This document shows positions 11,726-44,601 of a stretch of 64,000 nt of DNA, piece by piece. The position numbers were made by a program, and so were the translations under genes. Source of the stretch: Microbacterium terricola (GTDB lineage Bacteria; Actinomycetota; Actinomycetes; Actinomycetales; Microbacteriaceae). The stretch covers positions 3,038,001 through 3,102,000 of the forward strand of contig NZ_AP027141.1 in the NCBI RefSeq assembly GCF_027943945.1, written 5' to 3'. How positions within the stretch are numbered: the stretch's first letter is position 1; the number at the start of each line of letters is the position of its first letter. The notes below the pieces were generated by a model. It was not told where the DNA came from and searched no databases. It was given only the letters and a program-made list of their open reading frames with translations.

Positions 11726-12619
11726 CTACCCGAAGCGGCCGTTCACGTAGTCGAACGTGCGGGGGTCGACGGGGTCGTGGAACATCGCCTCCGTGTCGCC
11801 GTGCTCGACGATCGCGCCGGGCGTGCCCTGAGCCGCAAGGAAGAACGCGCACTGCTGAGAGACGCGCTGGGCCTGCTGCATGTTGTGCGTCACGATCACG
11901 ATCGTGACCTCGTGCGCGAGCTCGAGCATGGTCTCCTCGATCACGCGCGTCGAAGTGGGGTCCAGCGCGGAGCACGGCTCGTCCATCAGCAGCACGCGCG
12001 GCTTCACCGCCAGCGACCGGGCGATGCACAGGCGCTGCTGCTGCCCGCCCGACAGCCCGGCGCCGGGCGCCCGCAGGCGATCCTTCACCTCTTTCCACAG
12101 CCCCGCCTTGATCAGGCACGACTCGACGAGCTCATCCTTCTCATCGCGCGACGCCCGGGTGCCGGTCAGCTTGAGCCCCGCGATCACGTTGTCGTAGATC
12201 GACTGCGCGGGGAACGGATTCGGCTTCTGGAACACCATGCCGATGTGCTTGCGCGCCTCGACGAGCTTGCGTGAGGGGTCGTAGATGTCCTCGCCGTCCA
12301 GCAGCACCTCTCCGGCGAGCGAGGCGGACGGCACCAGCTCGTGCATGCGGTTGAGGATCCGCAGGAAGGTCGACTTGCCGCATCCGGACGGCCCGATCAG
12401 GGAGGTGACCACGCCCGCGGGCATGGTGAGGGAGACCCGGTCGAGCACCTGATGGTCGCCGAACCAGGCCGAGATGTTGCGCCCCTCGAGGGCGGCGAGC
12501 GGCTCGGCCACCGGCACGGCCGCCGTCGCGGCGCTGCGGCGCGGTGCTCTCGGCGTGCGCAGTCGCGGCGTCCTGCGCGACGGAAGGGGTTCGATCACTG
12601 CGGTGATGTCGTCGGTCAC
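11726..12619 (-). CDS. pstB: Phosphate ABC transporter ATP-binding protein
   Basis: This ATPase of the high-affinity phosphate importer has 297 residues, about 40 more than usual because of an Arg/Pro/Ala-rich N-terminal arm. Walker [10 protein letters not shown] (76-84), PstB-specific [13 protein letters not shown]-loop [10 protein letters not shown], signature LSGGQQQR, Walker [14 protein letters not shown] and [11 protein letters not shown] are all present. It is the last gene of the Pst locus, separated from pstC, pstA and pstS by six surface-protein genes; no second pstB is present here. The GTG start at 12619 has only a weak ribosome site, so an internal start is possible. Confidence 0.93.
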
Positions 12620-12653
12620 TGCTGCCGGCTTTCTGGGTGGTCGGATGCTGCGG

Positions 12654-13613
12654 TCACAGCATGTTGGGGAGGAGGCGGGTGATCTCGTCGGCGACGAAGA
12701 ACCCGGCGAGCAGGAGCACGGGCACGAAGACGATCCACGTCTTCTGCGAGCCGATGCGTCGCAGCGACCACACCGCGGCGATCTCGGCGGCGATGAGGAA
12801 CTGCACGGCGAAGACCAGGGCCCACACCGTCGAGACGTCCGTGCCGAGTGCCGTGTCGGAGGCCGGCAGGGTCGCGGTCGTGGTCATCCGCGCGCCGGCG
12901 GGCTGGACGTCCGAGGTCAGCTCGGCGTCGACGTACGCCACCCCGGTGGGCACGTAGGGCGCGCCGCGGGAGGTCTGCAGGATGAGGCGGCTCTCGCCCG
13001 CCTTCGGCGCAGGCGGCGTGGGGTCTCCGGCGTATCGGAGGCCGATCACCGCGAACTCCTGCAGCCCCTGGCCGGTGCGCACCGTGATCACGTCGCCCGG
13101 GGCGAGGCTCTGCAGGTGCGAGAACGGGCCCCCGTACGCGGCAGCCCGCCCCATCAGGACGCTCACGCCGCCCTGCCCCGGCAGCACCGTGTCACGCCGG
13201 TGCCCGATGCCCGCGGTCAGCACGCCGGACGCCGTGCCCTCCACGATGACCTCGTGCAGGCCCAGGCTCGGGATGGCCAGGAGGCCGACCGGTGCGCCGT
13301 CGGCCAGGAGCACGTCCTCGAAGTCGCCCTCGCTGACCGGCGCGATGCCCGCCTCGAGCTGCGCCCGGTAGTCGTCGGAGAGGCGCTGCTGGGCGACCAG
13401 ATGCTGGACGTGGCTGAACACGAGGAGGTTGAGCGCGAACATGATCAGCAGCGCGGCGGCCACCGCGGCGAAGCTGCGGGCGAACGCCTGACGCGTGGTG
13501 AGCGGCGCCAGCACCACAGGGGGACGCGGGGGACGCTTCGGCGGGCGCGGGGCCTTCGGTGCGCGCGGGGGCTTCGGGGAGCGACGCGACGTGGGCGCCT
13601 CCGTGGTCGTCAC
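12654..13613 (-). CDS. Sortase-like membrane protein lacking the catalytic His and Cys
   Basis: The 319-residue protein has a basic/Pro-rich N-terminal tail, one membrane segment, a sortase-like beta-barrel and two C-terminal membrane segments. It aligns by eye with class D/E/F sortases ([28 protein letters not shown]). However, the catalytic His position reads MGRAAAYGG and the catalytic Cys position (TLxTC) reads LILQTSRG, so both are replaced, by Arg and Ser. It is probably not a transpeptidase; a scaffold or binding role is more likely. Loss of catalysis is inferred from the missing residues. GTG 13613 overlaps the preceding stop (GTGA). Confidence 0.7.
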
Positions 13614-14437
13614 GCCGTCACCTCCGCCGTCCTCGCCGGCCAGGAGCCGCGTGCGGCGCGCACACCCCACCAGGCTGTCGCGACGACGATGAGGACGATC
13701 GCGACGAACCAGGGGAAGGCGAACACCGTCGCATCACGGACGAGCGGACTCAGCTCCACCCCGTCGACCTCGTCGGGGGGAAGGATCGTCGCGTGGGCGA
13801 AGTACATCCCCCACTGTCCGACGTCTTCGATGGATGCCGTCATCACCCGGGTCTCGCCCGGCTTCAGGTTGTCGACGGTGACGGTGACGTTCTGGCCGAC
13901 GCCGTTGCCGAACGGCGTCTGCACCCAGAACACCGTGTCGGCGTCGATCGTCGACTCGGAGACGTTCCGGAGGGTCACGGACACCTGGATGTCGCCGGCT
14001 GCGGGGTTCAGCGACGGGGTGTAGCGATGCTCGAGGCCGGACACCGTGAGGATGCCGCCGAGGTCGGTCTCGTCGTCGGCGATCGGCGTCGGTTCGGGGT
14101 CCGGCGCGACGTCCGACGGGCCGGACGCATCGGACGGCGGCGCTGCTCCGAGCCCGCCGGGCACCGGGTCGTCGTCGGAGCCGCCTTGTTCAGCGTCGCA
14201 GTCGGGAGCAGGCCCGAGGACCTCGGCGGAGAGCAGCACGCCTCCGTCGGCATCGACATCCGGCTCGGTGCAGGCGGCCGCCTGGCGGACGACGGCGCCC
14301 TGTGCGGGCAGGGGCGCGCTCGCCCACGCTGCCGTGCCGCCCAGCAGCGTGACGCCGAGCGCGACGAGCAGCATCGACGCGCCCCCGAGGACGCGACGGG
14401 TCCGGACTCCTGGGCGGCGGGCGTTGATGGGCGGCAC
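13610..14437 (-). CDS. WxL-partner-like secreted membrane protein (shorter DUF916-like)
   Basis: This 275-residue protein starts with a signal peptide (ending near TAAWASA). A Pro/Asp/Gly-rich spacer with Cys pairs follows, then a beta-sandwich domain (LTVSGLEHRYTPSLNPAAGDIQ onward, VSVTLRNVSES, NLKPGETRVMTASIEDVGQWG) and one C-terminal membrane segment before a basic tail. The last domain matches the second half of the neighbouring DUF916-like protein, so the two are paralogues and this one lacks the first domain. GTG 14437 is chosen because it lies just after the preceding stop (TGAG-GTG). Function is unknown; anchoring of WxL-type proteins is the analogy. Confidence 0.65.
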   Translation of the reverse strand: MPPINARRPGVRTRRVLGGASMLLVALGVTLLGGTAAWASAPLPAQGAVVRQAAACTEPDVDADGGVLLSAEVLGPAPDCDAEQGGSDDDPVPGGLGAAPPSDASGPSDVAPDPEPTPIADDETDLGGILTVSGLEHRYTPSLNPAAGDIQVSVTLRNVSESTIDADTVFWVQTPFGNGVGQNVTVTVDNLKPGETRVMTASIEDVGQWGMYFAHATILPPDEVDGVELSPLVRDATVFAFPWFVAIVLIVVATAWWGVRAARGSWPARTAEVTA

Positions 14438-14438
14438 C

Positions 14439-15524
14439 TCAGCGATCCGTGCGGTCGTCAGCGGGCGCGCCCACGGGCACCGGGACGGACTCCGCCTCTG
14501 CCTTGCGACGCGCCTCCGCCTCGGTGTGCGCCACCCAGGCGGCCGCGTTCTTCTCGTCACGGCGGCGACGCCACCGCACGAACAGCCAGATGGCGACGCC
14601 GAGCACGATGACGGCGAGGATCGTCCACGGGACCACGATCATGACGACGTCGCGCCGGGTCTCCTGGATCGGGGCCTCGATGAACCCGTCGGCCTTGCCG
14701 ATCATGCGGACGTAGGGGTTGAGGTACCCCCATTGGCCGACACCGGGCACGGTGACCGTGAGGGCCCGGGTCGAGCCCGGCAGCATCTCCTCCACCTCGG
14801 TGCGGACGAGCTGTCCGGTCTCGAGGCCGAAGAAGGTGCGCACGCCGGTCACCGCACTGGCCGACAGCGCGACGTTTCCGGCGTTCTCGACCGTGTAGGT
14901 GACGGTGGTCGTGCCGTCGAAGGGGTTGATCGTCGGCGAGTACGACGGCGACATGCCCGTGATCGTCAGGAGCGGCTGCAGGTCGCCGGCGACGCGGACG
15001 TAGAGGCGGCTGCCGACCCGGCGATCGACGAGCACCTGACCGTCGGGCGAGACGGTCGACACGACGATGCCGGCTGCGTGGTCGCCGGGCGATGCGTCGG
15101 CAGGCACGGTCAGATCGACCGGGAGCACCTTCGACCCGCCGGCGGGGAGCGTGACCGTGACCTGCTTCTTGCCGCCCACGGTGATCCAGCTGCCCGCGTC
15201 GGTGGGGGTGGCCTCGGTGTCGAGGAGGGCGAACCCTCCGTCGTCGTTGTTGAACGCGTCGGTCGCGAAGACCGTCAGCTCCTGCTCGACGGTGCCCGTG
15301 TTGCGCACCTCGTAGAAGTCCTCGATGTGCTGGCCGGGGTCGGCCGCGTACGTGAAACGTGAGCGCCCGTCGGCTCCGGAGTCGTCTGCGGGCGCACCCG
15401 CGATGCCGACCGTGTCGTCGTCGGCGGCGAGTGCGGCGGTCGCCGGCATCGACGAGAGCAGAAGCCCGAGGGCGAGCGCGGCGATGGTGGCGATGCCCGC
15501 GCGCGAGGTGGTGAAAGGTTGCAC
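14439..15524 (-). CDS. WxL-partner (DUF916-like) membrane protein
   Basis: A signal peptide is followed by a first beta domain (RFTYAADPGQHIEDFYEVRN, LPVDLTVPADASPGDHAAGI) typical of DUF916/WxL peptidoglycan-binding partner proteins. A second domain (YSPTINPFDGTTTVTYTVEN, PGVGQWGYLNPY), a membrane segment and a charged cytoplasmic tail come next; the total is about 361 residues. In Firmicutes such proteins pair with WxL surface proteins, and a WxL-like protein is encoded directly upstream. The GTG at 15524 is chosen; an ATG at 15560 is also possible. A PHO-box-like repeat lies about 40 nt upstream. Confidence 0.72.
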   Translation of the reverse strand: MQPFTTSRAGIATIAALALGLLLSSMPATAALAADDDTVGIAGAPADDSGADGRSRFTYAADPGQHIEDFYEVRNTGTVEQELTVFATDAFNNDDGGFALLDTEATPTDAGSWITVGGKKQVTVTLPAGGSKVLPVDLTVPADASPGDHAAGIVVSTVSPDGQVLVDRRVGSRLYVRVAGDLQPLLTITGMSPSYSPTINPFDGTTTVTYTVENAGNVALSASAVTGVRTFFGLETGQLVRTEVEEMLPGSTRALTVTVPGVGQWGYLNPYVRMIGKADGFIEAPIQETRRDVVMIVVPWTILAVIVLGVAIWLFVRWRRRRDEKNAAAWVAHTEAEARRKAEAESVPVPVGAPADDRTDR

Positions 15525-15562
15525 AGTACATTCCGACAAGTGAGGCTTGCTGGCTCGCATCC

Positions 15563-15584
15563 GCGGGGTGAACCAGATGTGAAC
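15563..15584 (-). promoter_or_regulatory. PHO-box-like direct repeat
   Basis: Read on the minus strand there are two adjacent 11-nt units, GTTCACATCTG and GTTCACCCCGC, in perfect 11-nt register. This matches the actinobacterial PhoP direct-repeat unit (GTTCA-type). It sits 39 nt upstream of the GTG start of the DUF916-like gene, so this half of the cassette may have its own phosphate-controlled promoter. Confidence 0.6.
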
Positions 15585-15628
15585 GCCGGACGCACGATGT
15601 CTGCTGACCCGGCCGAAGGACGTGGAAA

Positions 15629-15660
15629 GGAGGGGCGATGCCTGGTGGCATCGCCCCTCC
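15629..15660 (-). terminator. Perfect 14-bp stem hairpin after the WxL-like gene
   Basis: The arms at 15629-15642 and 15647-15660 (core GGGGCGATGCC against GGCATCGCCCC) pair over 14 bp without mismatch around a TGGT loop. On the minus strand the stem is followed by TTTCC. It begins 33 nt after the WxL-like stop and before the next promoter region. It fits a rho-independent stop or attenuator that would make the WxL-like protein more abundant than the products downstream. Confidence 0.7.
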
Positions 15661-15692
15661 CGGGGTGCGATCGCGGTGATCGCGAAGGGTGC

Positions 15693-16757
15693 CTAGTCGC
15701 CGATCAGCGTGAGCGTCAGCTTCGAGGTGTAGGTGCCCGCAGGAGCGTCGACCGGCGCCACGAGGGTCAGGTCGGCCGAGAACGTGGTCTCGCCGATGCC
15801 CTTGCCCGCGTCAGCAGCGGCGAAGTCCGCCGGGTAGACACCGGAGCCGGCGGTCTGCGCCGCGGCCAGCTCCGCACCGTGCGCGTCGGTGACGAGCGTC
15901 GGAGCGAGGCCGAGGTGCTCGGCGCCGAACGTCGACGAACCGCTGGTGAAGTCCGCCACGTCGGCCGTCAGCGTCCAGCCGGGACGCGACACGATGCGCT
16001 CGTCGACGACCGAGAACTCCGGCAGCTCGGCGGTGGACGTCGACAGGTGGTTCACGAGCGTCGCGGTGCCGAACGTGGCCTTCGCGCCGGCCGGGACCTC
16101 CAGGCTGAGCGCGCCGTCCTCGGCGCCGACCGTGGTCGCCTCGAGGTCGATGTCGCCCTTGAGGCAGTCGTCCGGCGTGGGGATCTCGTCGCAGTGCGCG
16201 GGCGGCTCGACGACCGGACCGCTCTGGTCGGCGAACGTCCAGTTGCCCGCGCCGCCCGGCTGCACGACGATCGTCGTGAACAGCACGCCGGCGTCGGCGA
16301 GGTTGAGGCCGTTGTTCTTCGTCCACGCGAAGCCGAGGCTGTACGTGCCGCCGGCCTTCACGCCCGCCCAGTTGCCCTTGGTGAAGCCCGAGAGCGTCAG
16401 GTTGGGGCTCTGGATGCCGACGGTTCCCGGCACCAGCGACGAGTCACCGGTCGCCGACCAGTTGGCGATGGTGGTCTCCTGACCGACGGGCGAGATGAAC
16501 AGCGTGGCGCCGGTGGCGTCCGCCGTGCCGGGGAACGGGATGTCGAGGTCGGGGATGGTCTTGCCGGGCGACGAGATCACCTGGTCCTCCCACGCCAGCA
16601 CCTGGTCGTCAGCGAGCAGGTGCCCGTCGCCGGCGTCCAGGAGGTAGAAGTCGGGCTCCCCGGCGGCCGAGGCCGAGAGCGACGTGCCGAGCACGCCGGC
16701 GGCGATCAGGCCGACGGCGACGAAGGACGCCGTCAGCTTCTTCGAAGTGATGTTCAT
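15693..16757 (-). CDS. WxL-like secreted surface protein
   Basis: This 354-residue secreted protein has a signal peptide (cleavage near SASA-AG). Its C-terminal third resembles a WxL domain: RPGWTLTADVADF supplies the first Trp-X-Leu, and the protein ends with AGTYTSKLTLTLIGD, where the classical second WxL Trp is Leu. The N-terminal part (FYLLDAGDGHLL, ATGATLFISPVGQ, GTYSLGFAWTKNNG) is typical of secreted beta-rich proteins. One Cys pair (CDEIPTPDDC) lies in the middle. It is encoded between the binding-protein homologues and the two DUF916-like partners. A cell-wall-associated role is inferred from this pairing; the ligand is unknown. Confidence 0.65.
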   Translation of the reverse strand: MNITSKKLTASFVAVGLIAAGVLGTSLSASAAGEPDFYLLDAGDGHLLADDQVLAWEDQVISSPGKTIPDLDIPFPGTADATGATLFISPVGQETTIANWSATGDSSLVPGTVGIQSPNLTLSGFTKGNWAGVKAGGTYSLGFAWTKNNGLNLADAGVLFTTIVVQPGGAGNWTFADQSGPVVEPPAHCDEIPTPDDCLKGDIDLEATTVGAEDGALSLEVPAGAKATFGTATLVNHLSTSTAELPEFSVVDERIVSRPGWTLTADVADFTSGSSTFGAEHLGLAPTLVTDAHGAELAAAQTAGSGVYPADFAAADAGKGIGETTFSADLTLVAPVDAPAGTYTSKLTLTLIGD

Positions 16758-16775
16758 GGTGCTGTTCCTTTCAGG

Positions 16776-17876
16776 TCAGAGCGTCGCGAACGCGCGCGTG
16801 ATCGTGGTGGTCGAGGGGGCGAGGAAGCCGAACTTCTTCTTCACGTTGCCGACGGACGTGCCGATCGTGCCGAAGCTCGTCAGGCTGTTCGCCACCGTCG
16901 GGTTCACCAGGCGCGCCAGTCCCGCGTCGTACTTCGGGTCGGCGGTGTTGATGCGCGCGTACTCGACCACGAGGTAGGTGTCGCGGCCGAACTTGGTGTC
17001 GGAGTAGTAGGTCGAGTTGGGAACGAGGTTCGGAGCGGAGCCGGTGAAGGCCGCCTGCCCGGCGATCGCCGAGCCGAACGCGACACCTGCCGCCGTGGTG
17101 GTGTTGAGGCCCGCCACGCCGTTCGCCTGCGAGATCCAGTTGGCCGCCGAGAACGGGATGATCTGGTTCGCGCCCAGCACGGTCGCGTCGTTCTCGGGGG
17201 TCGTGTTGCCGGTGTCGTTGACGCACGAGCCGAGCGTGGTGACGCCGATGGCCGAGAGGAAGAACGAGCGCGTGCCCGAGCCGTTCTGCGGGATGCGCGG
17301 GGTGACCGCGATGCCGTCGATCTCGGTCGTGGTGCACTCGTAGATCGCCTTGAGCTGCGCGGCAGTGAGCGTGGCCCACGACGCGTTGCCGCCCTTGTAC
17401 GCGAAGCCGACGGCGTCGCGCGCGTACGGCACGTAGGCGAGGAGGCCGGAGGTGTTCGCGTTGGCGCCGGGGCCGCTCGAGGAGCGCGCGATGTCGACCT
17501 GGCCGGTGATCGCCTTCGCCGGAACCGCCGCGTTGCCCGAGTACGTCGCACCCGTGATGGATGCGCGGAGCGCGGTGACGCCGGCGCCCGAGCCGGACGG
17601 GCGACCGAAGAACGGGCCGCCGGGCTTGGCCTGGATGGCGGTCGATCCGAACGCGTCGAAGTTGCCGAGCGTGGTGTTCGACGACGTGACGCGGAGGAAG
17701 CCACCGGAGGCGTTGGTGCCGTTGATGATGGCGTTGGCCGAGTCCTGCAGCGTGTCCGACCCGACCAGCGAGTAGCTGTTCGAGACGGGCTCGGCGTAGG
17801 CGGAGCTGCCGAAGCCGACGCAGGCCAAGGCGACTCCGACGGCCGCGCTGACGGCGACCATCTTCCTGATCTTCAT
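16776..17876 (-). CDS. PstS-like secreted binding protein (366 aa)
   Basis: This type 2 periplasmic-binding-fold protein of the phosphate-binding group has a signal peptide ending near SAYA. It contains LVGSDTLQDSANAI, GSGAGVTALRASI, DIARSSSGP and an IPQNGSGTRSFFLSAIG loop like the phosphate-contacting SGT loop of PstS. It lacks a lipobox and a C-terminal membrane segment, so it may be released or held by partners. An AGAAGGAA ribosome site precedes the ATG. It is one of three binding-protein homologues in this locus. It could bind phosphate or an organic phosphate; sequence alone cannot say. Confidence 0.75.
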   Translation of the reverse strand: MKIRKMVAVSAAVGVALACVGFGSSAYAEPVSNSYSLVGSDTLQDSANAIINGTNASGGFLRVTSSNTTLGNFDAFGSTAIQAKPGGPFFGRPSGSGAGVTALRASITGATYSGNAAVPAKAITGQVDIARSSSGPGANANTSGLLAYVPYARDAVGFAYKGGNASWATLTAAQLKAIYECTTTEIDGIAVTPRIPQNGSGTRSFFLSAIGVTTLGSCVNDTGNTTPENDATVLGANQIIPFSAANWISQANGVAGLNTTTAAGVAFGSAIAGQAAFTGSAPNLVPNSTYYSDTKFGRDTYLVVEYARINTADPKYDAGLARLVNPTVANSLTSFGTIGTSVGNVKKKFGFLAPSTTTITRAFATL

Positions 17877-17945
17877 GTGATTCCTTCTGTGTGTTGAGTG
17901 AGGTGTCTTGCGATGAGGTGGTGCGGGAAGGGTGAGTTCTGGGGG

Positions 17946-20504
17946 TCAGAGGCGGCGACGCATCCGACCGATGACGGGCACGGCGCACGCCCCGGCGAGG
18001 CCCGCGAGGAGGCTCGTCGGCACGGCCGCCGGCATGGCGGCGAGTTCGGGGTCGGCGGGCGTCACCGGTCCGCTGAGTGCCCCGGCGGCCGCGCCCGACG
18101 CATCGGGATCGCCCGTACCGGAGGAGGAGGGGTCGCCCGAGAGTCCGCCCGAGCCCAGCCCGGACCCGTCGCCGGCGCCCGTCCCGGATCCGCCGTCGGC
18201 GCCCGGCTCGCCGGCAGGCTGATCGGGGAACTCCTCGGTGGGCGGCGGGGTCGCGGCGCCGGCCTCGATGGCCACGGCGGCGTTGAGCGCCTGCGTGCGC
18301 CAGCTGTCGGGGATCGGGGCGTAGCCGTCCGGCAGCTGGCCGAGGTCGACGCCGGGTTCCTGCCCGTTCGTCGCGGCGTAGCGGATGAACGTGGCGTAGC
18401 TCGATCGCACGGCTGCGTCGGCGATCGCCGGCGACGCGGCGGCGTACACCGGGACGGTGAGGGGGTACGCGGTGGCGGCCGCCTTCGCCGGCGCGGACTC
18501 GGGTGCGAACCCGTAGACCTGCGATTGGGTGGCGGCGGGCGTCATCGCGGCGGCCGCGGCGCGCATCGAGTCGGTGCCGGCCGAGACGAACCGGCCGGCG
18601 GGGTTGCGCAGCGCCGCCGTGTAGACCTGGTAGCGCGCAGCGGCGGAGGTGTCGGTCAGCCCGAGCACGCGCTGCTGGCCCGGCAGGTACCGCGCGGCCT
18701 TCTGATACTTGGGCACCGGAACGCCCAGCGGATCCCACGCGCCGAGCACCTGCCCGTCGCCGCGCAGTGTGAGGTACGCGCTGGTGGAGAAGTCCGTCAC
18801 GAACGGGCGCCACGTGATGAGGTCGATCGGACCCTCCGTGTCGGTCCCCTCCTGCACGACGGGATCCGCCTTCGGAAAGTCGTCGCGCGGCAGCGTGAGG
18901 GCGGCGCCGGAGGTGTTCGCCTTCGCCGTCGTGGCGCTCCACGGGTTCACCGTCATGCCCCACGGGTCGGCCTTGCCCTTGAGGAAGTCGACTGCGTCGG
19001 GGTCGCTGACGATGTAGGTCCAGTGGACCGTGGCCGCGTCGGATCGGCCCTGCGGCACGAGGATGTCGGACAGCGACGGCGAGACGAGTGACTGGTCCGC
19101 CCATTCCGGGTCGTTGATCGCCAGGAAGTCGGGGTCGTTCGTGAGCCCGCGCGGGTTGTAGACCCGCTTGCCGTCCGACAGGTGGCTCAGGTGCGTGCGG
19201 TCGGCGTACGTCGGCAGGGAGTCGACGTACGAGCTCGTGAGCAGCTTGGCGAGCAGCCGCGGTGTGAGCTTGAGATCCGTGAGCGGCAGACCCGCCCGCT
19301 GCTTCGACTCCTCCGACGCGGACTGCTTCGGCTCACGGTCGACGGCGAACGACACGGTCAGCCCGGTGAGCGCGATCGGCGCGTACTGCAGCGTGTCGGT
19401 CACCCCGTCTCCCGCGGCGAGCGGCTCGGTCGTGAGCGCCAGCGGCGCCGCACCGCCCGAGTTGGCGGCGATCAGCGCGTCGGATTCGACCCCCGTGAGC
19501 GCGGAGTAGATCGCGCCGCCCTTCGCGTTGCAGAGCGCCGGCTGCCACGACGAGATGGCCTGGCTGACGAGCTCACTGCCGGCGAGCTGACGCTCCGCTG
19601 CGCCGATCGGGCAGCGCAGGCCGAGCGCCTTGAAGTCGAGGCGCACCGCGATGCGGTGCTTCCACGCATCCCAGAAGAGACCGGACTGCGTGATGTTCGC
19701 CGAGCCGGAGTCGCTCGTCCCCCTGGGCACGATCACGAGCCAGCACGACTGACCGGAGACCGCGCCGTAGTCTGCGGTCACGGGGGTGCCGCAGCCGAGT
19801 CCGGGGGCCTGCAGGGCGGTCTGCACCTCGAACTTGACCGAGCCGGTGCCGTCCGCGCCCGACCCTGCCCAGGGCACCTCGTTGGTCGTGAGCGCGGTGA
19901 AGAACTCATTGGTGTTCAGGTCGACGGTGGAGTCGTGCTTTCCGTCGACGACCGACTCGACGACCTCGTTGGTCACCGAGCGGAACGGGATGCCGGTGTA
20001 GGTCGGGTTCGCGAAGCCGTCGCCGAAGACCGTGTACGGCTCGTCCTCCTTGGCGACGGTGTCGTCGCCGTCCCGGAATGCGTCGCGCGTGGTGCCGGGC
20101 GTCAGCGTCGCGCCGTACTGGCAGGTCGTCCGGTCGGGCGCGTTCACGTCGTCCGGGTCGTCCCCCCAGCACTGGAAGATCTGCAGGAAGTTCTGGCCGC
20201 CGGTCTGCTGGCTGGGCACGGTCGACTGCGCGGCTCCGGTCCAGCTCACCTGGATGCCCTGCGACACCAGGTCCTGCGTCTGCGACACCGTCACGGCGAG
20301 GTCGGGGAAGGGCGCGTTCTCGAGGTCGTCGTCCTGTGTCGCCGCGGTCACCGTCACGGCCGAGCCGTCCGCTGCGGCGGCCGAGGGTGCCGCGGCGATG
20401 CCCGCGAGCGACATGGTGCCGAACGTCAGGCCGGCGACGATCCCGCCCGCAAGGAGCGAGGGGATCCACGACGTGCGGGACGTGCGGGAAGACGGGCGAA
20501 GCAA
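17946..20504 (-). CDS. Large PstS-like surface protein with C-terminal anchor
   Basis: This protein of about 852 residues has a signal peptide, then a long unique N-terminal half (several Cys pairs, SCWLVIVPRG, LRCPIGAAERQ). A PstS-like region follows (DPDFLAINDPEW, AATVHWTYIVSD, FVTDFSTSAYLTLRGDG, PVYAAASPAIADAAVRSSYA), then a Gly/Ser/Pro/Asp-rich spacer and a final membrane segment with an RMRRRL tail. There is no LPXTG. The TTG at 20504 is chosen because AGGAG lies 8 nt upstream. A PHO-box-like site lies further up. It is probably a surface-exposed phosphate or phosphoester receptor held in the membrane; this is inference. Confidence 0.7.
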   Translation of the reverse strand: MLRPSSRTSRTSWIPSLLAGGIVAGLTFGTMSLAGIAAAPSAAAADGSAVTVTAATQDDDLENAPFPDLAVTVSQTQDLVSQGIQVSWTGAAQSTVPSQQTGGQNFLQIFQCWGDDPDDVNAPDRTTCQYGATLTPGTTRDAFRDGDDTVAKEDEPYTVFGDGFANPTYTGIPFRSVTNEVVESVVDGKHDSTVDLNTNEFFTALTTNEVPWAGSGADGTGSVKFEVQTALQAPGLGCGTPVTADYGAVSGQSCWLVIVPRGTSDSGSANITQSGLFWDAWKHRIAVRLDFKALGLRCPIGAAERQLAGSELVSQAISSWQPALCNAKGGAIYSALTGVESDALIAANSGGAAPLALTTEPLAAGDGVTDTLQYAPIALTGLTVSFAVDREPKQSASEESKQRAGLPLTDLKLTPRLLAKLLTSSYVDSLPTYADRTHLSHLSDGKRVYNPRGLTNDPDFLAINDPEWADQSLVSPSLSDILVPQGRSDAATVHWTYIVSDPDAVDFLKGKADPWGMTVNPWSATTAKANTSGAALTLPRDDFPKADPVVQEGTDTEGPIDLITWRPFVTDFSTSAYLTLRGDGQVLGAWDPLGVPVPKYQKAARYLPGQQRVLGLTDTSAAARYQVYTAALRNPAGRFVSAGTDSMRAAAAAMTPAATQSQVYGFAPESAPAKAAATAYPLTVPVYAAASPAIADAAVRSSYATFIRYAATNGQEPGVDLGQLPDGYAPIPDSWRTQALNAAVAIEAGAATPPPTEEFPDQPAGEPGADGGSGTGAGDGSGLGSGGLSGDPSSSGTGDPDASGAAAGALSGPVTPADPELAAMPAAVPTSLLAGLAGACAVPVIGRMRRRL

Positions 20505-20562
20505 CAGAGGACTCCTGAGAGTGAGCGCCGATCGGGTATGCCGGCGAGCCGAAGCTATGGGC

Positions 20563-20584
20563 GTGGATTGACATCTGGGTGAAC
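20563..20584 (-). promoter_or_regulatory. PHO-box-like direct repeat
   Basis: On the minus strand the unit GTTCACCCAGA is followed by the weaker unit TGTCAATCCAC in 11-nt register, about 60 nt upstream of the TTG start of the large PstS-like gene. The first unit is a strong match to the actinobacterial PhoP half-site. Confidence 0.5.
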
Positions 20585-20687
20585 GATTCGCCAACGAGGG
20601 CGGGGCCGATCATGGCGGATGGGTGCTGTCGTCAATGGCGCGCGGGAAACAGGGTTTGATCGGGGCTTTCAGCGGGCACGGCGATCG

Positions 20688-20704
20688 CCGGGGACGTGCC
20701 CCGG
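20688..20704 (-). terminator. Short GC hairpin downstream of pstS
   Basis: CCGGGG at 20688-20693 pairs with CCCCGG at 20699-20704 around a 5-nt loop, 18 nt after the pstS stop. There is no T-run, so termination is uncertain, but it separates pstS from the PHO-box promoter of the next unit. Confidence 0.35.
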
Positions 20705-20721
20705 AGGTCGGCGCGAGGGGA

Positions 20722-22377
20722 TCAGCTCTGCTGCGAGCCGCCTCTGCGCAATCGCCGAGAGGCGAGAGGAGGAACCACCATCGCCAGGACGAGGAGGATG
20801 CCGGCGGCCAGCATGAGCGTCTGCGGCGCGCCCCATTCGTCGCTCTCGAGGGTGAACGGAGCGGATGCGGCGACGGCCGTGCCTGTCGAGCCCGAGACGA
20901 GCGCCCCGTTGGAGTCGTAGACCGCTTCGCCCGAGCCACCGCCGGCGTCGCCGGATGCGTCGCCGCTCCCCCCGTCGCCGCCGGACCCGCCCGCGGCCGC
21001 GCCCGATCCGTCGCCGGACCCCGACCCGCCCGAGCCGGACCCGCCGGAGCCGGCACCGGCCGAGCTGCCGCCGGTGCCGCTGCCCGTCGTCGGGGTCTCC
21101 ACGGAGCCCGCGCCGGCGGTTCCCGTCGTGCACTGGTTGGGGCCCTTCCGATCGCAGTCGGCCGGCTGTGGGGCCGTCTTCGCGAGCTGGTTGCTGGAGG
21201 GGCTGTCGCCGGCCTTGAAGGTGGGGTTGTTGCACTTCGCGAGGTCGATGCCTGCGGAGCCGGCACCGGGGATGCGCTTGATCTGATCGGACCCGGCCAT
21301 CACCAGGTTCATCGGCAGCGGCGAGTAGCCGAGCGCCGCCGCCTGCTGCTGCCCCTCGCACAGGACGTAGCTGGCGAAGGCGCCGAGGGTGCGCCCCTTC
21401 TTCTTGGTGAAGACGTTCGTGGTCTCCGTCGGCACGATCATGTACGAGTAGCTCGACAGCGGGTACGCGCGCGGGTCGGTGCTGCCGTAGACGCCGTCGA
21501 GGATCTGCGTGAGGTAGTCCACCGACGACTCGTTGTCGTTGATCTTCGCCTTCAGCATCGCGACGGCGACGGACGACGCGGTCGGCTCGATGTAGTAGCC
21601 GGCCTCGTTCAGCACCTTCGCGACGGGGAAGCCCGACTTCAGCGCGTACGAGTACTCGACGTACGTGATCGCGCCCTCACCGTAGTTCTGGCTCACGTAC
21701 CCGGCGACGCCGAGCGAGCCGTTCTGCGCCTTCCCGCCCGACGGCGTCGGGAACTGCGAGGTCATGCCCGCCTTCCAGATGTCGGAGTGCGTCTTCGACA
21801 TCCACAGGGTGAACTGCGCCGACGAGCCGGACCCGTCCGACCGGACCACCGGCACGATCGTCCGGTCGGGCATCTTCAGTCCGGGGTTGTCGGCCTGGAT
21901 GGCCGCGTCGTTCCACTTCTTGATCGCGCCGGTGAAGATCTTCGTGATCGTGGTGCCCGACAGCCGCAGGTTCGTGACCCGCTTGCCGCCGATTTTCAGG
22001 TTGTACATGAACGACGTCCCGCCGGCGACGATCGGCATGTACGCATACTTCGTCGTCGGACGCTCGGGCGCCGAGTTGTCGGTCGGGTTCGTCTGGAACG
22101 GGATCTCGCTGATCGCGAAGTCGACGCGCCGGTTGATGAAGTCGGTGCGGCCGGCCGACGACCCGACACCCGAGTAGTTCACCGTCATCGCGTAGTTGGA
22201 CGCCACGTTGCGACGCCACTGGTCGAGGGCGTTCTGCGACCAGGTCGATCCGGAGCCGGAGATCCGGGTCCAGCTGTCGTCGGCGGTCGCGGGCACGCTG
22301 GTGAGCCCCGCGGCCATCACGAGGAGTCCGGCCAGCACCAGGGCGAGCCGGCGGAAGCGGGAAGGACGGCGGATCAC
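20722..22377 (-). CDS. pstS: Phosphate-binding protein PstS with a C-terminal membrane anchor
   Basis: This phosphate receptor has 551 residues, well above the usual 320-380. A signal peptide (ending near VPATA) precedes a full PstS domain: ISGSGSTWSQNALDQW, YSGVGSSAGRTDFINRRVDFA, VVRSDGSGSSAQFTLWMS and the GAITYVEYSYA block. A Gly/Ser-rich spacer of about 70 residues and a membrane segment with an RRLRR tail follow, in place of the usual lipobox. The GTG start at 22377 overlaps the pstA stop (GTGA). The extra length is a surface-display arrangement shared with the neighbouring large PstS-like protein. Confidence 0.92.
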   Translation of the reverse strand: MIRRPSRFRRLALVLAGLLVMAAGLTSVPATADDSWTRISGSGSTWSQNALDQWRRNVASNYAMTVNYSGVGSSAGRTDFINRRVDFAISEIPFQTNPTDNSAPERPTTKYAYMPIVAGGTSFMYNLKIGGKRVTNLRLSGTTITKIFTGAIKKWNDAAIQADNPGLKMPDRTIVPVVRSDGSGSSAQFTLWMSKTHSDIWKAGMTSQFPTPSGGKAQNGSLGVAGYVSQNYGEGAITYVEYSYALKSGFPVAKVLNEAGYYIEPTASSVAVAMLKAKINDNESSVDYLTQILDGVYGSTDPRAYPLSSYSYMIVPTETTNVFTKKKGRTLGAFASYVLCEGQQQAAALGYSPLPMNLVMAGSDQIKRIPGAGSAGIDLAKCNNPTFKAGDSPSSNQLAKTAPQPADCDRKGPNQCTTGTAGAGSVETPTTGSGTGGSSAGAGSGGSGSGGSGSGDGSGAAAGGSGGDGGSGDASGDAGGGSGEAVYDSNGALVSGSTGTAVAASAPFTLESDEWGAPQTLMLAAGILLVLAMVVPPLASRRLRRGGSQQS

Positions 22378-23651
22378 GGTGTCTCCTCTGAGGACGGAGC
22401 CGAGGGGGCGGGGTGGGAGGCGGGCACGGCGAGGTGGGCGGCGGCGCCGGCGGGCGGGCGCTGCGCCATCCGCACCGCGTCGCGGCGAGACGCGTCTGCG
22501 GCCGCCCGCTGCTGGCGGGGCGTCAGCCGCCCCGGTCCGCGGCCGCCGAGGATGCGGGCGATCGTGAAGAGCAGCAGCACCAGGAAGATCAGCGTCGCGG
22601 CCGCGCCGAAGCCGCGCGCGATCATGTTGGGCTCGGGCGACTTGACCATGTCGAAGCCCTGCAGCGGCAGCGAGATCATCGGCCCGGAGAACGGGTTGAG
22701 GTTCATGACTGCCGTCACCCCGGAGGTGAGGAGGACGGGCGAGGTCTCGCCGACGCCGCGGGCGGTGCCGAGGATGACGGCGGTGACGAGGCCCGACCGT
22801 GCGGTGGGGAGGACGACGTGCCACACCGTGCGCCACCGGGATCCGCCGAGCGCGTAGGACGCCTCGCGGAGGTTGCCGGAGACGAGGCGCAGCACGACGT
22901 CGGACGCACGGATCACGATGGGCAGCATCATCACCGTGATCGCGATCGACGCCGCGAAGCCGGACTTCTCGTGGGTGACGAGCGTGATGATCGCCGCGTA
23001 CACGAACAGGCCGGCGACGATCGAAGGCAGCGCGGTCATCGCGTCGGACACGGTGCGGACGAATCGCGCGAACCGGCCCCCGATCTCGTTCATGAACACC
23101 GCGGTGGTGATGCCCAGCGGGATCGTGATCGCGAGCGCGATGCTGATCTGGATGAGGGTGCCGACGATCGCATGCAGGATGCCGCCCACGTCGAGGGGGT
23201 CCAGCGGCCCGGCGAACTCCATCGTCTCGGTGAAGAAGTTGAGATGGCTCATCGCGGGGATGCCGCGGATGAGCGCGTAGGCGACGACGAAGATCAGGGC
23301 GCCGATGAGGATCAGCCCCGCGCTGTAGAGCAGCGCCGTCATCACCCGGTCGGCGACGGCCTGACGGTCGCTGCGCAGGGAGACGAGGAAGGCGAAGATG
23401 CCGACGAAGGCGAGGTAGGCGACGACCGCCCATCCGACCGCACCGGTCATCGGCGTGAACCACCCGAACAGCAGAGTGGCCAGGGCCACGGCTGCGGCGA
23501 GCGCGCCGATCACGTTGAACCGGTCGTCCAGGGTGCCGCTGCGGACGATGCGGCGCTCCCCGACCTCCGTGTCGCCGGGGTCGGGCAGGTGGGTGCGTCC
23601 TGGCCGGACCGCCGGCTCGGTGTGCACGTCGGAGAGCGTCATGTCACGCAT
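22374..23651 (-). CDS. pstA: Phosphate ABC transporter permease PstA
   Basis: This 425-residue permease has extra N-terminal membrane segments (GALAAAVALATLLFGW, GWAVVAYLAFVGIFAFL) before the conserved PstA core. The core includes GGILHAIVGTLIQI, AMTALPSIVAGLFV, the EAA-type loop REASYALGGSRWRT and GTARGVGETSP. The C-terminal tail of about 60 residues is Pro/Ala/Arg-rich. ATG 23651 overlaps the pstC stop by 8 nt; a second ATG at 23642 would start just after that stop and is equally possible. Confidence 0.92.
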   Translation of the reverse strand: MRDMTLSDVHTEPAVRPGRTHLPDPGDTEVGERRIVRSGTLDDRFNVIGALAAAVALATLLFGWFTPMTGAVGWAVVAYLAFVGIFAFLVSLRSDRQAVADRVMTALLYSAGLILIGALIFVVAYALIRGIPAMSHLNFFTETMEFAGPLDPLDVGGILHAIVGTLIQISIALAITIPLGITTAVFMNEIGGRFARFVRTVSDAMTALPSIVAGLFVYAAIITLVTHEKSGFAASIAITVMMLPIVIRASDVVLRLVSGNLREASYALGGSRWRTVWHVVLPTARSGLVTAVILGTARGVGETSPVLLTSGVTAVMNLNPFSGPMISLPLQGFDMVKSPEPNMIARGFGAAATLIFLVLLLFTIARILGGRGPGRLTPRQQRAAADASRRDAVRMAQRPPAGAAAHLAVPASHPAPSAPSSEETP

Positions 23652-24696
23652 CCGTCTCTGCGCCCGAGCGCGACCGGGCGACGATCTGCGACGCGGTGAA
23701 GTTGATGATGAGGGTGATGAGGAAGAGCACCAGGCCGGCTGCCATGAGGGCCGACAGTCCGAACTCGCTCGCCTCGCCGTAGCGCAGCGCGATGAGCGCG
23801 GACACCGAGTTCGATCCCGTCTTGAGCACCTGCCAGTTGATCTCGAAGATGGGCGAGATGATCATGTAGATCGCGATCGTCTCGCCGAGGGCACGGCCGA
23901 GACTCAGCATGGTGCCGCCGATGATGCCGCCGCGTCCGAACGGCAGCACGACGGTGCGGATCATGCCCCAGCGCGTCGACCCGAGCGCGAGGGCGCCTTC
24001 GCGCTCTCCGACCGGAGCCTGCGAGAACGCCTCGCGCATCACCGATGTCTGGGTGGGCACCACCATCAGCGCGACGACGATGCCGGCGATGAACGCCGAC
24101 GACGTGAACGCGCTCGCATCGGTCAGCCGATTGCCGTCGGCGTCGGTGACGGCGAAGATCGGGATCCACGCGAAGTACGTCGAGATCCACTGCGCCACCG
24201 GGATGACGTTCGCCTGCAGGAAGAACACGCCCCACAGTCCGTAGACCACGCTGGGGACGGCCGCCATCAGGTCGACGAGAGTGATGAGCGCCGACTTCGG
24301 CCCTTCCGGCAGGATCTCGCTGATGAGCAGGGCGGTGCCGAGCCCGAGCGGCACCGAGAGCGTCAGGGCGATGAGGGCGATCGACACCGTTCCGAACAGC
24401 ACCGCCGCGATGCCGAACTCCTGCGTCTCCGGCGACCACTGCTGCTCGGTGAAGAACGAGAAGCCGGCGACCCGCAGAGCGTCGCCCGCCCGGAAGGCGA
24501 GGAAGATGCCGACCGCGAGCATGATCCCGACGGTGATCCCGCCGGCAGCGAAGCTCACGGTGCGGAAGGCGCGATCCGCACCGGACGGGCGGGACTTCAG
24601 GTCGCGGCGCGTGGCCGCCGCGAAGGCGTCGTCGTCCGACACCGGCAGGACGGTGGTCTGTTCGTCGTCTCTGCGGACGTCGAGGTCGAGGCTCAC
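23644..24696 (-). CDS. pstC: Phosphate ABC transporter permease PstC
   Basis: This 350-residue permease is the partner of PstA. It has a cytoplasmic N-terminal arm, about six membrane segments, the PstC block AAVPSVVYGLWGVFFL, the EAA-type loop REGALALGSTRWGM and GRALGETIAIYMII. It is the first gene of the Pst locus, and a PHO-box-like repeat lies about 91 nt upstream of the GTG start. Gene order pstC-pstA-pstS differs from the common pstSCAB order. Confidence 0.93.
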   Translation of the reverse strand: MSLDLDVRRDDEQTTVLPVSDDDAFAAATRRDLKSRPSGADRAFRTVSFAAGGITVGIMLAVGIFLAFRAGDALRVAGFSFFTEQQWSPETQEFGIAAVLFGTVSIALIALTLSVPLGLGTALLISEILPEGPKSALITLVDLMAAVPSVVYGLWGVFFLQANVIPVAQWISTYFAWIPIFAVTDADGNRLTDASAFTSSAFIAGIVVALMVVPTQTSVMREAFSQAPVGEREGALALGSTRWGMIRTVVLPFGRGGIIGGTMLSLGRALGETIAIYMIISPIFEINWQVLKTGSNSVSALIALRYGEASEFGLSALMAAGLVLFLITLIINFTASQIVARSRSGAETDA

Positions 24697-24786
24697 GCGA
24701 GCACACCGGGGCGCGGCACAGCGGACATCAGGTTCCTTCGGGTGGAAGATCGACCGGAGCGAGTGGGCGCCTCACGGTCGTTGATC

Positions 24787-24808
24787 AGCGTGGACCCGCT
24801 CGGTGAAC
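24787..24808 (-). promoter_or_regulatory. PHO-box-like direct repeat upstream of pstC
   Basis: On the minus strand GTTCACCGAGC is followed by GGGTCCACGCT in 11-nt register. The first unit matches the PhoP half-site well; the second is degenerate. It lies in the 172-nt gap between the kinase stop and pstC, where the pst promoter is expected. Confidence 0.5.
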
Positions 24809-24868: not shown

Positions 24869-26671
24869 TCATGGGGTGGGCACCGGGGTCGGCGACGGAG
24901 ATGGCGCGTGGGTGGGCGTGGCGCTCGGAGTCGGCGCGGTGGTCGGCGGGGGTGTCGGGGAGGGGGATGCTGCGGGCGCGGCCCGCAGGACGGTCACGGT
25001 GGCGCCGAGACGGATGGATGCGCCCGCCGCGGGGTCCGTCCCCAGCACCGCGCCGTGGGCGGCCTCTGCGCCTGCCGTCTCCGCGAACACCACGACGAAG
25101 CCGGCCTCCTCGAGGGTCGCGGTCGCGCGTTGCGGCGACGACCCGGCCACCGGCGGCACCGCGTTGAAGCCGGACGCCACGACGAGGGAGACCGCGCCGC
25201 CGCGGGCGAGGCGGGCTCCGGCTCCGGGCGACGAGCTCAGCACGGTCTCGGCCCGGCGCGGGGAATCCGCCTGCGACAGCTCGCCCACCACGAACCCCGC
25301 CTCGGCGAGGGCAGCGCGTGCCGCAGCCAGGGTCAGGGTGCGCAGGTCGGGCACGCTGGTCGTGGCCGGGTCCGCCGGACCGCCGGTCGTCGGCGCGACC
25401 GTGCGGGACGCGGTCGGTGTGGCGGATGCCCGCGGCGCCGTCGGCGAGGGGGAAGCGACCGCGACCGACGGCGCGGTCGCGGCGGCGTAGAAGATCGCCG
25501 CGGCGATCCCCGCCGCCGCGAGCCCCCCGACCGCCCACGCCCATCCCGCGCGCCCACCCCTCGTGCCGAGATCACGTGATCTCGGCGAGCGCACATGTCC
25601 TGGTGCGCCATTGCGGGTGATCTCGTCGAGATCACGTGATCTCGCCTCAGCGGGGGTGAGGTTGGTGCGGCCGAGCACCTTCGTCACGTCGGTGCGCGAG
25701 ACCGGCACGGGGCGGGCGGCGGGCAGTGCGGCCGCCGCGGCGAGCGCCGCCCGCATCTCGTCGGCCGACGCGAACCGGTCGGCCGGGCTCTTCAGCATCG
25801 CGCGCACCACCACCCGATCGAGCGCCCGGGGGATACGGGGGTCGGTCACCGACGGCACCGGTGGTGGGGCCTCGACGTGGGCGCGCATTGTCTGCGCCGC
25901 GTCTGCGCGCTCGAACGGCGGGCGTCCGGTCAGCGCGAAGTGCAGCACCGCGCCCGCCTGGTAGAGATCGCCGCGCTCGTCGACCGGCTCGCCGCGGGCC
26001 TGCTCGGGCGACACGTAGTTCACGTTGCCGAGGACGCCGGTCCGTCCGTCCTCCGTCGCATTCAGGATGCTGGAGGCAACCAGAGCCGCCTCGCCGGCGG
26101 CGTCGGCCGACCCGAAGTCGAGCAATCGCACGCTCGCGAGCGACAGCACCCCGTCGACATCGACGGCCACCGTGATGTTGGACGGCGACACGTCGCGGTG
26201 GATGATGTCGGCCGCATGCAGGGCGGTCAGCGCCCGCAGCAGGCCTTCGCCGACCGCGACGGCGTCGGCGGCGGAGAGCGGTCCGTGGCGCTCGACATGC
26301 TCGGCCAGACTCACGCCCTCGGCCAGGTCGAGAGCGATCCAGACGACCGGGTCGGCCGCGTCGCCGTCGATGCCGGCATCCACGACCCCGACGAGGTGCG
26401 GATGCCGGACGCCCCGCATCCGCTCCGCCTCACCGAGGAACGCCGCCCTGGCGTCGGCGCGACGCGCCAGATGGGGATGCAGCGTCTTCAGCGCGACCGA
26501 AGCGCCCGTCTCCCCGTCGACGGCGGCGAAGACCGAGGCCGAGCCGCCCGAGCCCAGCAGCGGGCCGAGCTGGAAGCGCCCCGCCAGCAGGCCCGGAGCA
26601 CGGGTGGGCCCACCCGCACCGGCGGGCCCACCCGCACCGACGTCCGGTGAGTTCTCACCATCCGTCGGCAC
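24869..26671 (-). CDS. Membrane Ser/Thr protein kinase with PASTA domains
   Basis: About 600 residues form a cytoplasmic eukaryotic-type kinase, a linker, one membrane segment (about 375-399) and extracellular PASTA repeats with a Pro/Thr/Ser tail. Kinase motifs are the Gly-loop GSGGSA (40-45), Lys62 in VALKT, HRD (158-160), DFG (185-187) and SPEQ. Two PASTA units are visible (SVPDL...GFVVGEL and AVPPV...GFVVVFA). PASTA kinases sense muropeptides or lipid II and control wall growth. GTG 26671 is chosen because GGAG lies 7 nt upstream. The juxtamembrane linker is partly encoded by a palindromic element (25566-25644). Confidence 0.9.
   Translation of the reverse strand: MPTDGENSPDVGAGGPAGAGGPTRAPGLLAGRFQLGPLLGSGGSASVFAAVDGETGASVALKTLHPHLARRADARAAFLGEAERMRGVRHPHLVGVVDAGIDGDAADPVVWIALDLAEGVSLAEHVERHGPLSAADAVAVGEGLLRALTALHAADIIHRDVSPSNITVAVDVDGVLSLASVRLLDFGSADAAGEAALVASSILNATEDGRTGVLGNVNYVSPEQARGEPVDERGDLYQAGAVLHFALTGRPPFERADAAQTMRAHVEAPPPVPSVTDPRIPRALDRVVVRAMLKSPADRFASADEMRAALAAAAALPAARPVPVSRTDVTKVLGRTNLTPAEARSRDLDEITRNGAPGHVRSPRSRDLGTRGGRAGWAWAVGGLAAAGIAAAIFYAAATAPSVAVASPSPTAPRASATPTASRTVAPTTGGPADPATTSVPDLRTLTLAAARAALAEAGFVVGELSQADSPRRAETVLSSSPGAGARLARGGAVSLVVASGFNAVPPVAGSSPQRATATLEEAGFVVVFAETAGAEAAHGAVLGTDPAAGASIRLGATVTVLRAAPAASPSPTPPPTTAPTPSATPTHAPSPSPTPVPTP
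25566..25644. repeat. Paired palindromic element inside the kinase gene
   Basis: The palindrome CGAGATCACGTGATCTCG occurs at 25567-25584 (20 bp if flanking C/G are counted) and again at 25627-25644. A third half-copy GTGATCTCG lies at 25617-25625, and an inner hairpin GCGCAC (25589-25594)/GTGCGC (25603-25608) sits between them. The unit is in frame and translated as part of the linker before the membrane segment. Its structure is that of a REP/BIME-type element. Confidence 0.75.
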
Positions 26672-27236
26672 TGTCGCTCCGCGGCGTTCGGCGGACGAAC
26701 CGCCCGGACGGCCCACAGCGATCCGCTGCGGGCGACAGCACGGCTCCAGGCAGCGCCGCGAGCGCCAGCGCTGCGGCCTCGGCCCCGGATGAGCTCGACG
26801 CGTACCACCGGCTGCAGGTCATGACGGGCATGCCGTGGGCGGTGAGGATCCAGGCGCGGGCGGAGCCCCCCGGCGCGGTGAGCATCTCGACCTCGAGCGC
26901 ATCGGGCGCGGCCTGCAGCTGCTCGACGTGCGTCCGGGCCCGTTCGAAGCTGCGGTACAGGTGGTAGCTGCGGCCGATCTCGCGGTTGTTGCTGGCCATG
27001 AGACGCCAGAGGCCGCTGCGGGGGCCAGCCGGAGCGGAGGCGACGTGCTCTGCGGCCTCGCGGACGCGCTGGGCACCGGCGAGGGGAACCAGCGGATCGC
27101 GGAACCGCCGCCACGCCAGCTTGAGCGGGTCGTCGGGTGACTCGAAGGCAGTGAAGGCGACGCGCGCGCGGACCATCACCCCGCCGGGGGGACTCACGGT
27201 GTCTGCCATCCGGGTGTCGCTCCAGTACCGGCCCAT
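26655..27236 (-). CDS. Small protein of unknown function (DUF1508-like segment)
   Basis: I do not recognise a full family for this 193-residue protein. The segment WRLMASNNREIGRSYHLYRSFERARTH resembles the YegP/DUF1508 motif, in which an Asn-rich turn and a Tyr follow a beta strand. It overlaps the kinase gene start by 17 nt, so the two are probably co-expressed. An internal ATG at 27209 is an alternative start; neither start has a strong ribosome site. Confidence 0.6.
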   Translation of the reverse strand: MGRYWSDTRMADTVSPPGGVMVRARVAFTAFESPDDPLKLAWRRFRDPLVPLAGAQRVREAAEHVASAPAGPRSGLWRLMASNNREIGRSYHLYRSFERARTHVEQLQAAPDALEVEMLTAPGGSARAWILTAHGMPVMTCSRWYASSSSGAEAAALALAALPGAVLSPAADRCGPSGRFVRRTPRSDSADGW

Positions 27237-38198: not shown

Positions 38199-38272
38199 GG
38201 GGCTGTAGTTCAATGGCAGAACTTCTGCTTCCCAAGCAGATAGCGCGGGTTCGATTCCCGTCAGCCCCTCCA
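38199..38272 (+). tRNA. tRNA-Gly (anticodon CCC)
   Basis: The acceptor arms GGGGCTG (38199-38205) and CAGCCCC (38262-38268) pair fully, with T as discriminator and an encoded CCA at 38270-38272. The D arm (TAGTTCAATGGCAGA), the anticodon stem TTCTGC/GCAGAT with loop TTCCCAA and the T arm (CGGGTTCGATTCCCG) are canonical. The loop gives anticodon CCC, reading GGG. The accessory island begins directly downstream. Confidence 0.95.
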
Positions 38273-38291
38273 CTGTGGATTCTCATAATTG

Positions 38292-38306
38292 TTGAGACTT
38301 TCTCAA
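38292..38306 (+). terminator. Hairpin after the tRNA gene
   Basis: TTGAGA at 38292-38297 pairs with TCTCAA at 38301-38306 around CTT, 20 nt after the tRNA. There is no T-run, so it may be a processing or termination structure, or part of the island edge. The 256 nt between the tRNA and the next gene are noticeably poorer in GC than the flanks; no gene is seen in them. Confidence 0.35.
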
Positions 38307-43025: not shown

Positions 43026-43039
43026 GGAAAGGTCGCTCA

Positions 43040-43270: not shown

Positions 43271-43325
43271 TTGGACACGCCTAGCCAGGGGCGCAACTGT
43301 CGGCCGGAGACGAGGATCGGACCAG

Positions 43326-44597: not shown

Positions 44598-44601
44598 TCC
44601 T

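Follow-up and report, generated by a model that had tools for sequence, protein, structure and literature searches.

A conserved Pst-type gene cassette with surface-protein genes and a catalytically dead sortase in Microbacterium terricola and its relatives

Why should genes for a phosphate transporter of the Pst type be interspersed with genes for cell-surface proteins? The question is raised by a cassette at positions 11726..24808 of a 64,000-nucleotide stretch of the Microbacterium terricola genome (NZ_AP027141.1, positions 3,038,001-3,102,000; this whole stretch is called the window hereafter). Six genes separate pstS from pstB in the window, so that the compact pstSCAB order is not present, and a sequence-only reading had taken the arrangement for a phosphate-import locus split by surface-protein genes. 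Comparison with other genomes leads to another answer. The cassette is a real and conserved form of the Pst transporter that seems not to have been described before, additional to a canonical operon elsewhere in the genome, and its assembly is well supported by that comparison. The gene order read earlier was borne out, with Pfam and NCBIfam scans, judged against curated cut-offs, for the pst genes, the sortase domain and the WxL-interacting protein (WxLIP), and a PASTA kinase gene was found to precede it. All genes are on the minus strand, in the order PASTA kinase, pstC, pstA, pstS, the 882-residue protein, the 366-residue protein, WxL-like, WxLIP, a protein with an immunoglobulin-like (Ig-like) domain and a transmembrane (TM) segment (Ig-TM), sortase-like and pstB. 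The features are:

11726..12619, minus strand: PstB ATPase (TIGR00972, 335.3 bits, just below the cut-off of 343.2)
12654..13613, minus strand: catalytically dead sortase, 319 amino acids (PF04203, 43.8 bits, cut-off 26.6; start taken from a 319-residue database copy)
13610..14560, minus strand: Ig-like domain and TM protein (similar to the second half of WxLIP; true start inside this frame)
14439..15524, minus strand: WxLIP, with DUF916 domain, Ig-like domain and TM segment (PF06030, 28.2 bits, cut-off 27.3)
15567..15584, minus strand: PHO-box-like direct repeat with one mismatch (-60 to -43 relative to the inferred start of WxLIP)
15693..16757, minus strand: WxL-like surface protein, 354 amino acids (PF13731 in relatives)
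16776..17876, minus strand: secreted PstS-type binding protein, 366 amino acids (alignment, profile match to the PDB, PBP_like_2 matches)
17946..20594, minus strand: PstS-fold protein, 882 amino acids (N-terminal domain at about 75-328, PstS fold at 329-783, C-terminal TM-like segment)
20722..22377, minus strand: PstS (TIGR00975, 225.1 bits, cut-off 205)
22374..23651, minus strand: PstA permease (TIGR00974, 216.1 bits, cut-off 193.45)
23644..24696, minus strand: PstC permease (TIGR02138, 244.8 bits, cut-off 196.45)
24869..26716, minus strand: PASTA Ser/Thr kinase, 615 amino acids, one TM-like segment (Pkinase 108.4 bits, PASTA 69.6 bits)
26655..27236, minus strand: protein of 193 amino acids without assigned function, upstream of the kinase in a conserved neighbourhood (no Pfam matches)

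A search of the M. terricola genome finds a second pstB at 2.147 Mb, together with a second PstS, in a compact pstS-C-A-B operon; the earlier statement that there is no second pstB holds within the window and fails for the genome. In 34 genomes checked, the number of PstC copies over the curated cut-off equals one plus the number of cassettes in all 28 carriers, and is one in all six genomes without a detected cassette, carriers being genomes that match the 882-residue protein or the dead sortase in searches of limited sensitivity. Because of the separate compact operon and these copy counts, the cassette is an additional, paralogous Pst system. The split operon is ruled out by the canonical operon elsewhere and by the one extra PstC per cassette in carriers. 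The dead sortase is present in 12 of 149 genomes of the order, the window's own included. Four genomes (G060, G089, G115 and G122) have two different cassettes each and three PstC over the cut-off.

A collection of named genomes was scanned with the dead-sortase alignment, and the best 80 of 211 relatives are referred to as the named loci. They come from Microbacterium, Agromyces, Herbiconiux, Cryobacterium, Leifsonia, Subtercola, Frigoribacterium, Leucobacter, Propionicicella and other genera, and include metagenome-assembled genomes labelled Propionibacteriaceae and Cellulomonas; a 3.4-kb contig labelled Stenotrophomonas is probably contamination. Synteny with pst genes, which the sequence-only reading had proposed as a check on itself, is found: pstB lies 10-526 nucleotides after the dead-sortase gene in 79 of the 80 named loci, and the contig of the 80th (L095) ends first. 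The pstS gene, the 882- and 366-residue proteins, the dead sortase and pstB are all present in 67 of the 80. Where a named locus reaches the genes for the 882- and 366-residue proteins (70 loci), a WxL-family match above 150 bits is present in 66 and WxLIP in 64. In five type I loci first read as lacking WxL (L085, L086, L091, L096 and L109), the WxL-family profile gives 78-179 bits, so that the protein may be present there too.

That the surface genes are mere neighbours of a pst paralogue, with no functional link, would agree with a patchy distribution: the 882-residue protein is found in 35 of 150 genomes of the family, the window's own included (two matches on small contigs, G038 and G112, were left out of the follow-up), and the dead-sortase search of the order finds the cassette in none of the five other genomes of the genus. 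This explanation is largely contradicted by the synteny in 79 of 80 named loci and by the fusions of PstS to WxL domains described below, and we regard it as very improbable. Divergence is also correlated over the 80 loci, the dead sortase against the 882-residue protein with r 0.91 and against PstS with r 0.85, a correlation that, with no unlinked control gene in the comparison, fits plain vertical descent too.

Around distant relatives of the 882-residue protein, pst genes and a dead sortase are present in all 18 long stretches (L123-L140). In nine of these, called type II (L123-L131), the 366-residue protein is lengthened to 678-1042 amino acids and WxL and WxLIP are not found. Ig-like Big_3_5 matches occur in 6 of 40 scanned members of the 366-residue family, with Ig-like repeats in several type II proteins, and the Ig-extended protein apparently replaces the WxL/WxLIP display module. 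In L134 and L140 the genes for the 366- and 882-residue proteins are located upstream of pstC. In the phylum, a search of 60 genomes gives 5 matches, counting that of the window. In the two deepest relatives, L187 and L188, the dead sortase adjoins pstS, pstC, pstA and pstB, and neither WxL nor WxLIP is present at these loci. At L187 the sortase gene is transcribed divergently from the pst genes, with a weak match to the 882-residue family (67 bits) after it; at L188 an open reading frame for a PstS-like protein of 613 amino acids precedes the dead sortase. L189 and L190 encode intact sortases; the 11 and 5 kb of sequence examined there contain no pst cluster. From these few genomes, the core is probably a Pst system with a large PstS-like protein and a dead sortase; WxL/WxLIP looks like an add-on, because neither the type II loci nor the two deepest relatives show it. 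All loci are related by descent and the counts are not independent. Of the alignments used, A1 contains 30 of at least 120 homologues, A3 49 of 51, A4 38 of 46, A5 40 of 46, A6 40 of 41 and A7 60 of the 61 sequences in A2 (L082 left out).

The protein read earlier as sortase-like does contain a sortase domain, with hydrophobic segments near both ends, and has lost the catalytic residues: it has GR for the GH and TS for the TC of active sortases. The nearest NCBIfam model, class E, gives 54.8 bits against a cut-off of 160. Among 110 aligned dead sortases (not deduplicated, so that sequences from the same genome or from near-identical strains are included, and the window's own not counted), all 110 have Arg in the column of the catalytic His, and the catalytic Cys column is Ala in 98, Ser in 8 and Gly in 4, never Cys. 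Four control sortases, two of them from the window's genome, retain both His and Cys; the profile did not find a fifth, L197, which was dropped. An active sortase is ruled out by the loss of both residues. A fixed Arg instead of random decay suggests that the protein acquired a new role. The sortase of L188, from another class, has the motifs AGRRTTY and TTS, each one residue away from AGHRTTY of the intact sortase of L190 and from the TC of active sortases, and offers a way to begin dating when catalysis was lost:

L188:13516-14856: dead sortase with near-active motifs

The assignment of the surface proteins was partly upheld. The WxL-like protein of the window has no Pfam match, its first motif is WTL and its C-terminal motif LTL, so that two Trp-x-Leu motifs are not present; in relatives, PF13731 matches 10 of 49 scanned members of the family (best E 1.8e-4), and the family profile finds nothing in the PDB at E≤1. 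Of the two proteins read earlier as DUF916-like, the first, WxLIP, is one by profile, with PF06030 in 39 of 40 scanned members at E≤0.1; it has a TM-like segment and a weak PDB match to EfmWxLIP1 over the first domain (E 0.075), and DUF3324 (HBD) is not among the Pfam matches of the window's WxLIP. A DUF916-type domain, the lack of which had been named as a reason to drop the proposal, is thus present. The second, the Ig-TM protein, has no DUF916 match in Pfam. It resembles the Ig-TM half of WxLIP with 32% identity over 139 residues by BLASTP and is for that reason taken as a paralogue of the second half of WxLIP.

Eight Microbacterium loci contain, downstream of pstB, an open reading frame that matches the cassette PstS profile. 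Six of the eight were examined (L067 and L088 are left out of the count). Each of them has a WxL-family domain at its end, scoring 102-113 bits against a profile built without them and with about 35-42% identity to WxL proteins; the WxL model of Pfam itself matches just one, at E 0.041. The existence of these fusions supports the display of a PstS-type protein at the surface:

L066:12114-13808, downstream of pstB: PstS-WxL fusion keeping RADGSG at the phosphate site
L068:12096-13790, downstream of pstB: PstS-WxL fusion keeping RADGSG at the phosphate site
L077:12123-13817, downstream of pstB: PstS-WxL fusion keeping RADGSG at the phosphate site
L059:12060-14036, downstream of pstB: PstS-WxL fusion without RADGSG
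L073:12069-13730, downstream of pstB: PstS-WxL fusion without RADGSG
L084:12030-14012, downstream of pstB: PstS-WxL fusion without RADGSG

The canonical pstS promoter of the genome contains a perfect PHO box of GTTCACC repeats, the motif given for Streptomyces coelicolor in PMC4415409. At up to one mismatch the genome has four such sites, of which one immediately precedes the WxLIP gene; the backward pattern, used as a control, has no site. Counted from the WxLIP gene, a box with up to four mismatches stands at position -60 exactly in 40 of 73 loci, against 0-2 of 73 at seven other offsets, gene starts in relatives being heuristic. Before the gene for the 882-residue protein a box with up to two mismatches is found in 23 of 84 loci, and before pstC in 4 of 24; none of 80 permuted patterns reaches either count (mean 0.79 and maximum 19 for the former, mean 0.11 for the latter). 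A box precedes the gene for the 366-residue protein in 2 of 84, and none with up to two mismatches is found upstream of the pstA, pstS, WxL, Ig, sortase and pstB genes of the loci. The WxLIP start in the window, GTG at 15524, is inferred within a frame open from 15560, and the earlier start at 15560 put the box at -24. The sequence pattern makes the WxLIP unit a candidate member of the Pho regulon.

The large PstS-like protein and the second PstS-like protein of the earlier reading were confirmed, so that the cassette encodes three proteins with this fold. PstS itself has a C-terminal TM-like segment (residues 521-539) behind a Gly/Ser-rich linker, and inspection by eye revealed no lipobox. 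In the alignment, a Glu occupies the position of the canonical pocket Asp. Among 94 cassette-type PstS reading frames this residue is Glu in 84 and Asp in 4, all of the latter PstS-WxL fusions, with 6 unreadable by motif. The 882-residue protein contains the full PstS fold and has lost the SGT anion loop; its N-terminal domain has no PDB match at E≤0.001 with the one aligner used. In the 366-residue family, 13 of 40 aligned members match PBP_like_2 at E≤0.1, and the family profile matches phosphate-type binding proteins in the PDB (best E 3.4e-6). Arg 92, 131 and 298 are invariant in alignment A5 and Arg 203 nearly so. The canonical PstS pocket has a single Arg. These arginines, the Glu in the PstS pocket and the peptidoglycan-binding families at the locus would agree with import of a ligand that is not free phosphate, for example polyphosphate, a phosphorylated glycan or a wall fragment. 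The motif RS[DE]GSG is retained in 86 of the 94 cassette-type PstS, however, and the PHO-box-like control points to phosphorus supply; a different ligand seems rather unlikely.

Eighteen type I loci (L142-L159) include sequence upstream of pstC, and in 15 of them the PASTA kinase gene is found there; in several other loci it lies beyond pstB. The 193-residue protein is present in 13 of the 18. As called, the frames of these two genes overlap by 62 nucleotides in the window, and one start may be later. PstSCAB takes part in Pho signalling, and the cassette might mainly be a sensor, in which a Pst-like complex reads a wall ligand and signals through the kinase and PstB, with transport secondary. 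The position of the kinase gene, the lost anion loop of the 882-residue protein and the presence of a canonical pst operon for bulk import would all agree with this. On the other hand, neither the kinase nor the 193-residue protein is found in the available sequence of the nine type II loci, and Walker A and B motifs, signature and H-loop are intact in all 97 cassette PstB of relatives. We judge a mainly sensory function improbable.

The reading we prefer, with a probability of about 0.55, is that the cassette encodes a second, Pho-controlled Pst-type ABC (ATP-binding cassette) importer that would be mounted on the cell surface. PstC, PstA, PstB, three PstS-fold proteins and the dead sortase are kept together across genera, with WxL and WxLIP in most loci and the kinase often. 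Under phosphate limitation, WxL and WxLIP, or in type II the Ig stalk fused to the 366-residue protein, would hold binding proteins in the wall. These would catch phosphate or a phosphorylated ligand and hand it over to PstS, which would be tethered over PstCA by its Gly/Ser linker. The 882-residue protein may dock as a subunit with a non-canonical PstS fold. The dead sortase, with Arg in place of the catalytic His, may be a membrane scaffold or regulatory subunit, and the kinase, where present, would link the wall complex with signalling. What the ligand is, what the dead sortase and the 882-residue protein do, and any transport or signalling are what we infer from sequence comparison.

Several observations weigh against this importer. 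To the patchy distribution, the pocket Glu, the lost anion loop, the loci without WxL/WxLIP, the divergent sortase of L187 and the dependence of the locus counts already mentioned must be added some on the PHO boxes. The window has none before pstC, nor before the gene for the 882-residue protein, where the best site has 5 mismatches. For the WxLIP box, 1 of 80 permutations equals the observed count at up to two mismatches and none at up to three; of three distinct control patterns run over all loci, two gave 0 and one gave 17, against 18 observed. The WxLIP start was chosen post hoc, after the -60 pattern had been seen in relatives; a signal peptide fits there. The surface phosphate apparatus proposed from sequence alone is partly supported: display gains support from the six of six PstS-WxL fusions, and phosphate control from the PHO-box-like repeats, but WxL/WxLIP is missing in type II loci and the deepest relatives. 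Capture of phosphate itself is a conjecture, and the PstS pocket is unlike the canonical one.

A wider and more tentative proposal is an old transport-and-sensing machine of the Actinomycetota. The sortase, with His replaced by Arg and Cys lost, would have turned into a lasting part, without enzyme function, of a Pst-type ABC complex, joined by the PstS-fold protein that bears the unmatched N-terminal domain. The addition of WxL/WxLIP and the PASTA kinase in some lineages may then have produced an apparatus under Pho control that spans the wall, captures phosphorylated material and signals to the kinase.

When compared with known systems, the cassette resembles PstSCAB in that PstC, PstA and PstS score over their curated cut-offs and PstB just below, with its ATPase motifs intact. 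It differs in the C-terminal TM-like anchor of PstS, in which no lipobox was seen and Glu replaces the pocket Asp, and in having two further PstS-fold proteins, surface genes between pstCA and pstB, and the dead sortase. The 882-residue protein has 17% identity to M. tuberculosis PstS-1, and differs from it in lacking the anion loop and in its extra N-terminal domain and C-terminal TM segment. The Firmicutes WxL/WxLIP (csc) clusters are described, in PMC10599100 and PMC1534035, as encoding surface proteins, namely WxL, WxLIP and the small LPxTG protein CscD, and share with the cassette a WxLIP (DUF916, Ig-like and TM) adjoining one or more WxL-like proteins; the terms 'ABC transporter' and 'phosphate' occur 0 times in PMC1534035. 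The cassette differs from these clusters in its Pst genes, its dead sortase and its degenerate second WxL motif. With class E sortases it shares the sortase domain, but not the score or the catalytic His and Cys. The earlier reading knew of no described system with this layout, and no description of the cassette, or of a dead sortase with a transporter, was recognised in the open-access literature, which was covered in part and leaves subscription journals mostly outside.

Elsewhere in the window, at 38199-56025, a stretch of lower G+C content beside tRNA-Gly(ccc) encodes an integrase-core/Mu-type transposase, a TniB ATPase and a DUF4379 zinc-finger protein, and looks like a Tn7-like element or island.

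If the preferred reading of the cassette as a surface-mounted importer is true, it would be the first case found in which an ABC importer is linked with a WxL wall complex, and the first in which a conserved dead sortase is the partner of a transporter. It would suggest that Gram-positive bacteria can move solute capture outward into the wall, in a phosphate-starvation system that is open to direct testing in genera that can be cultured, Microbacterium and Herbiconiux among them.

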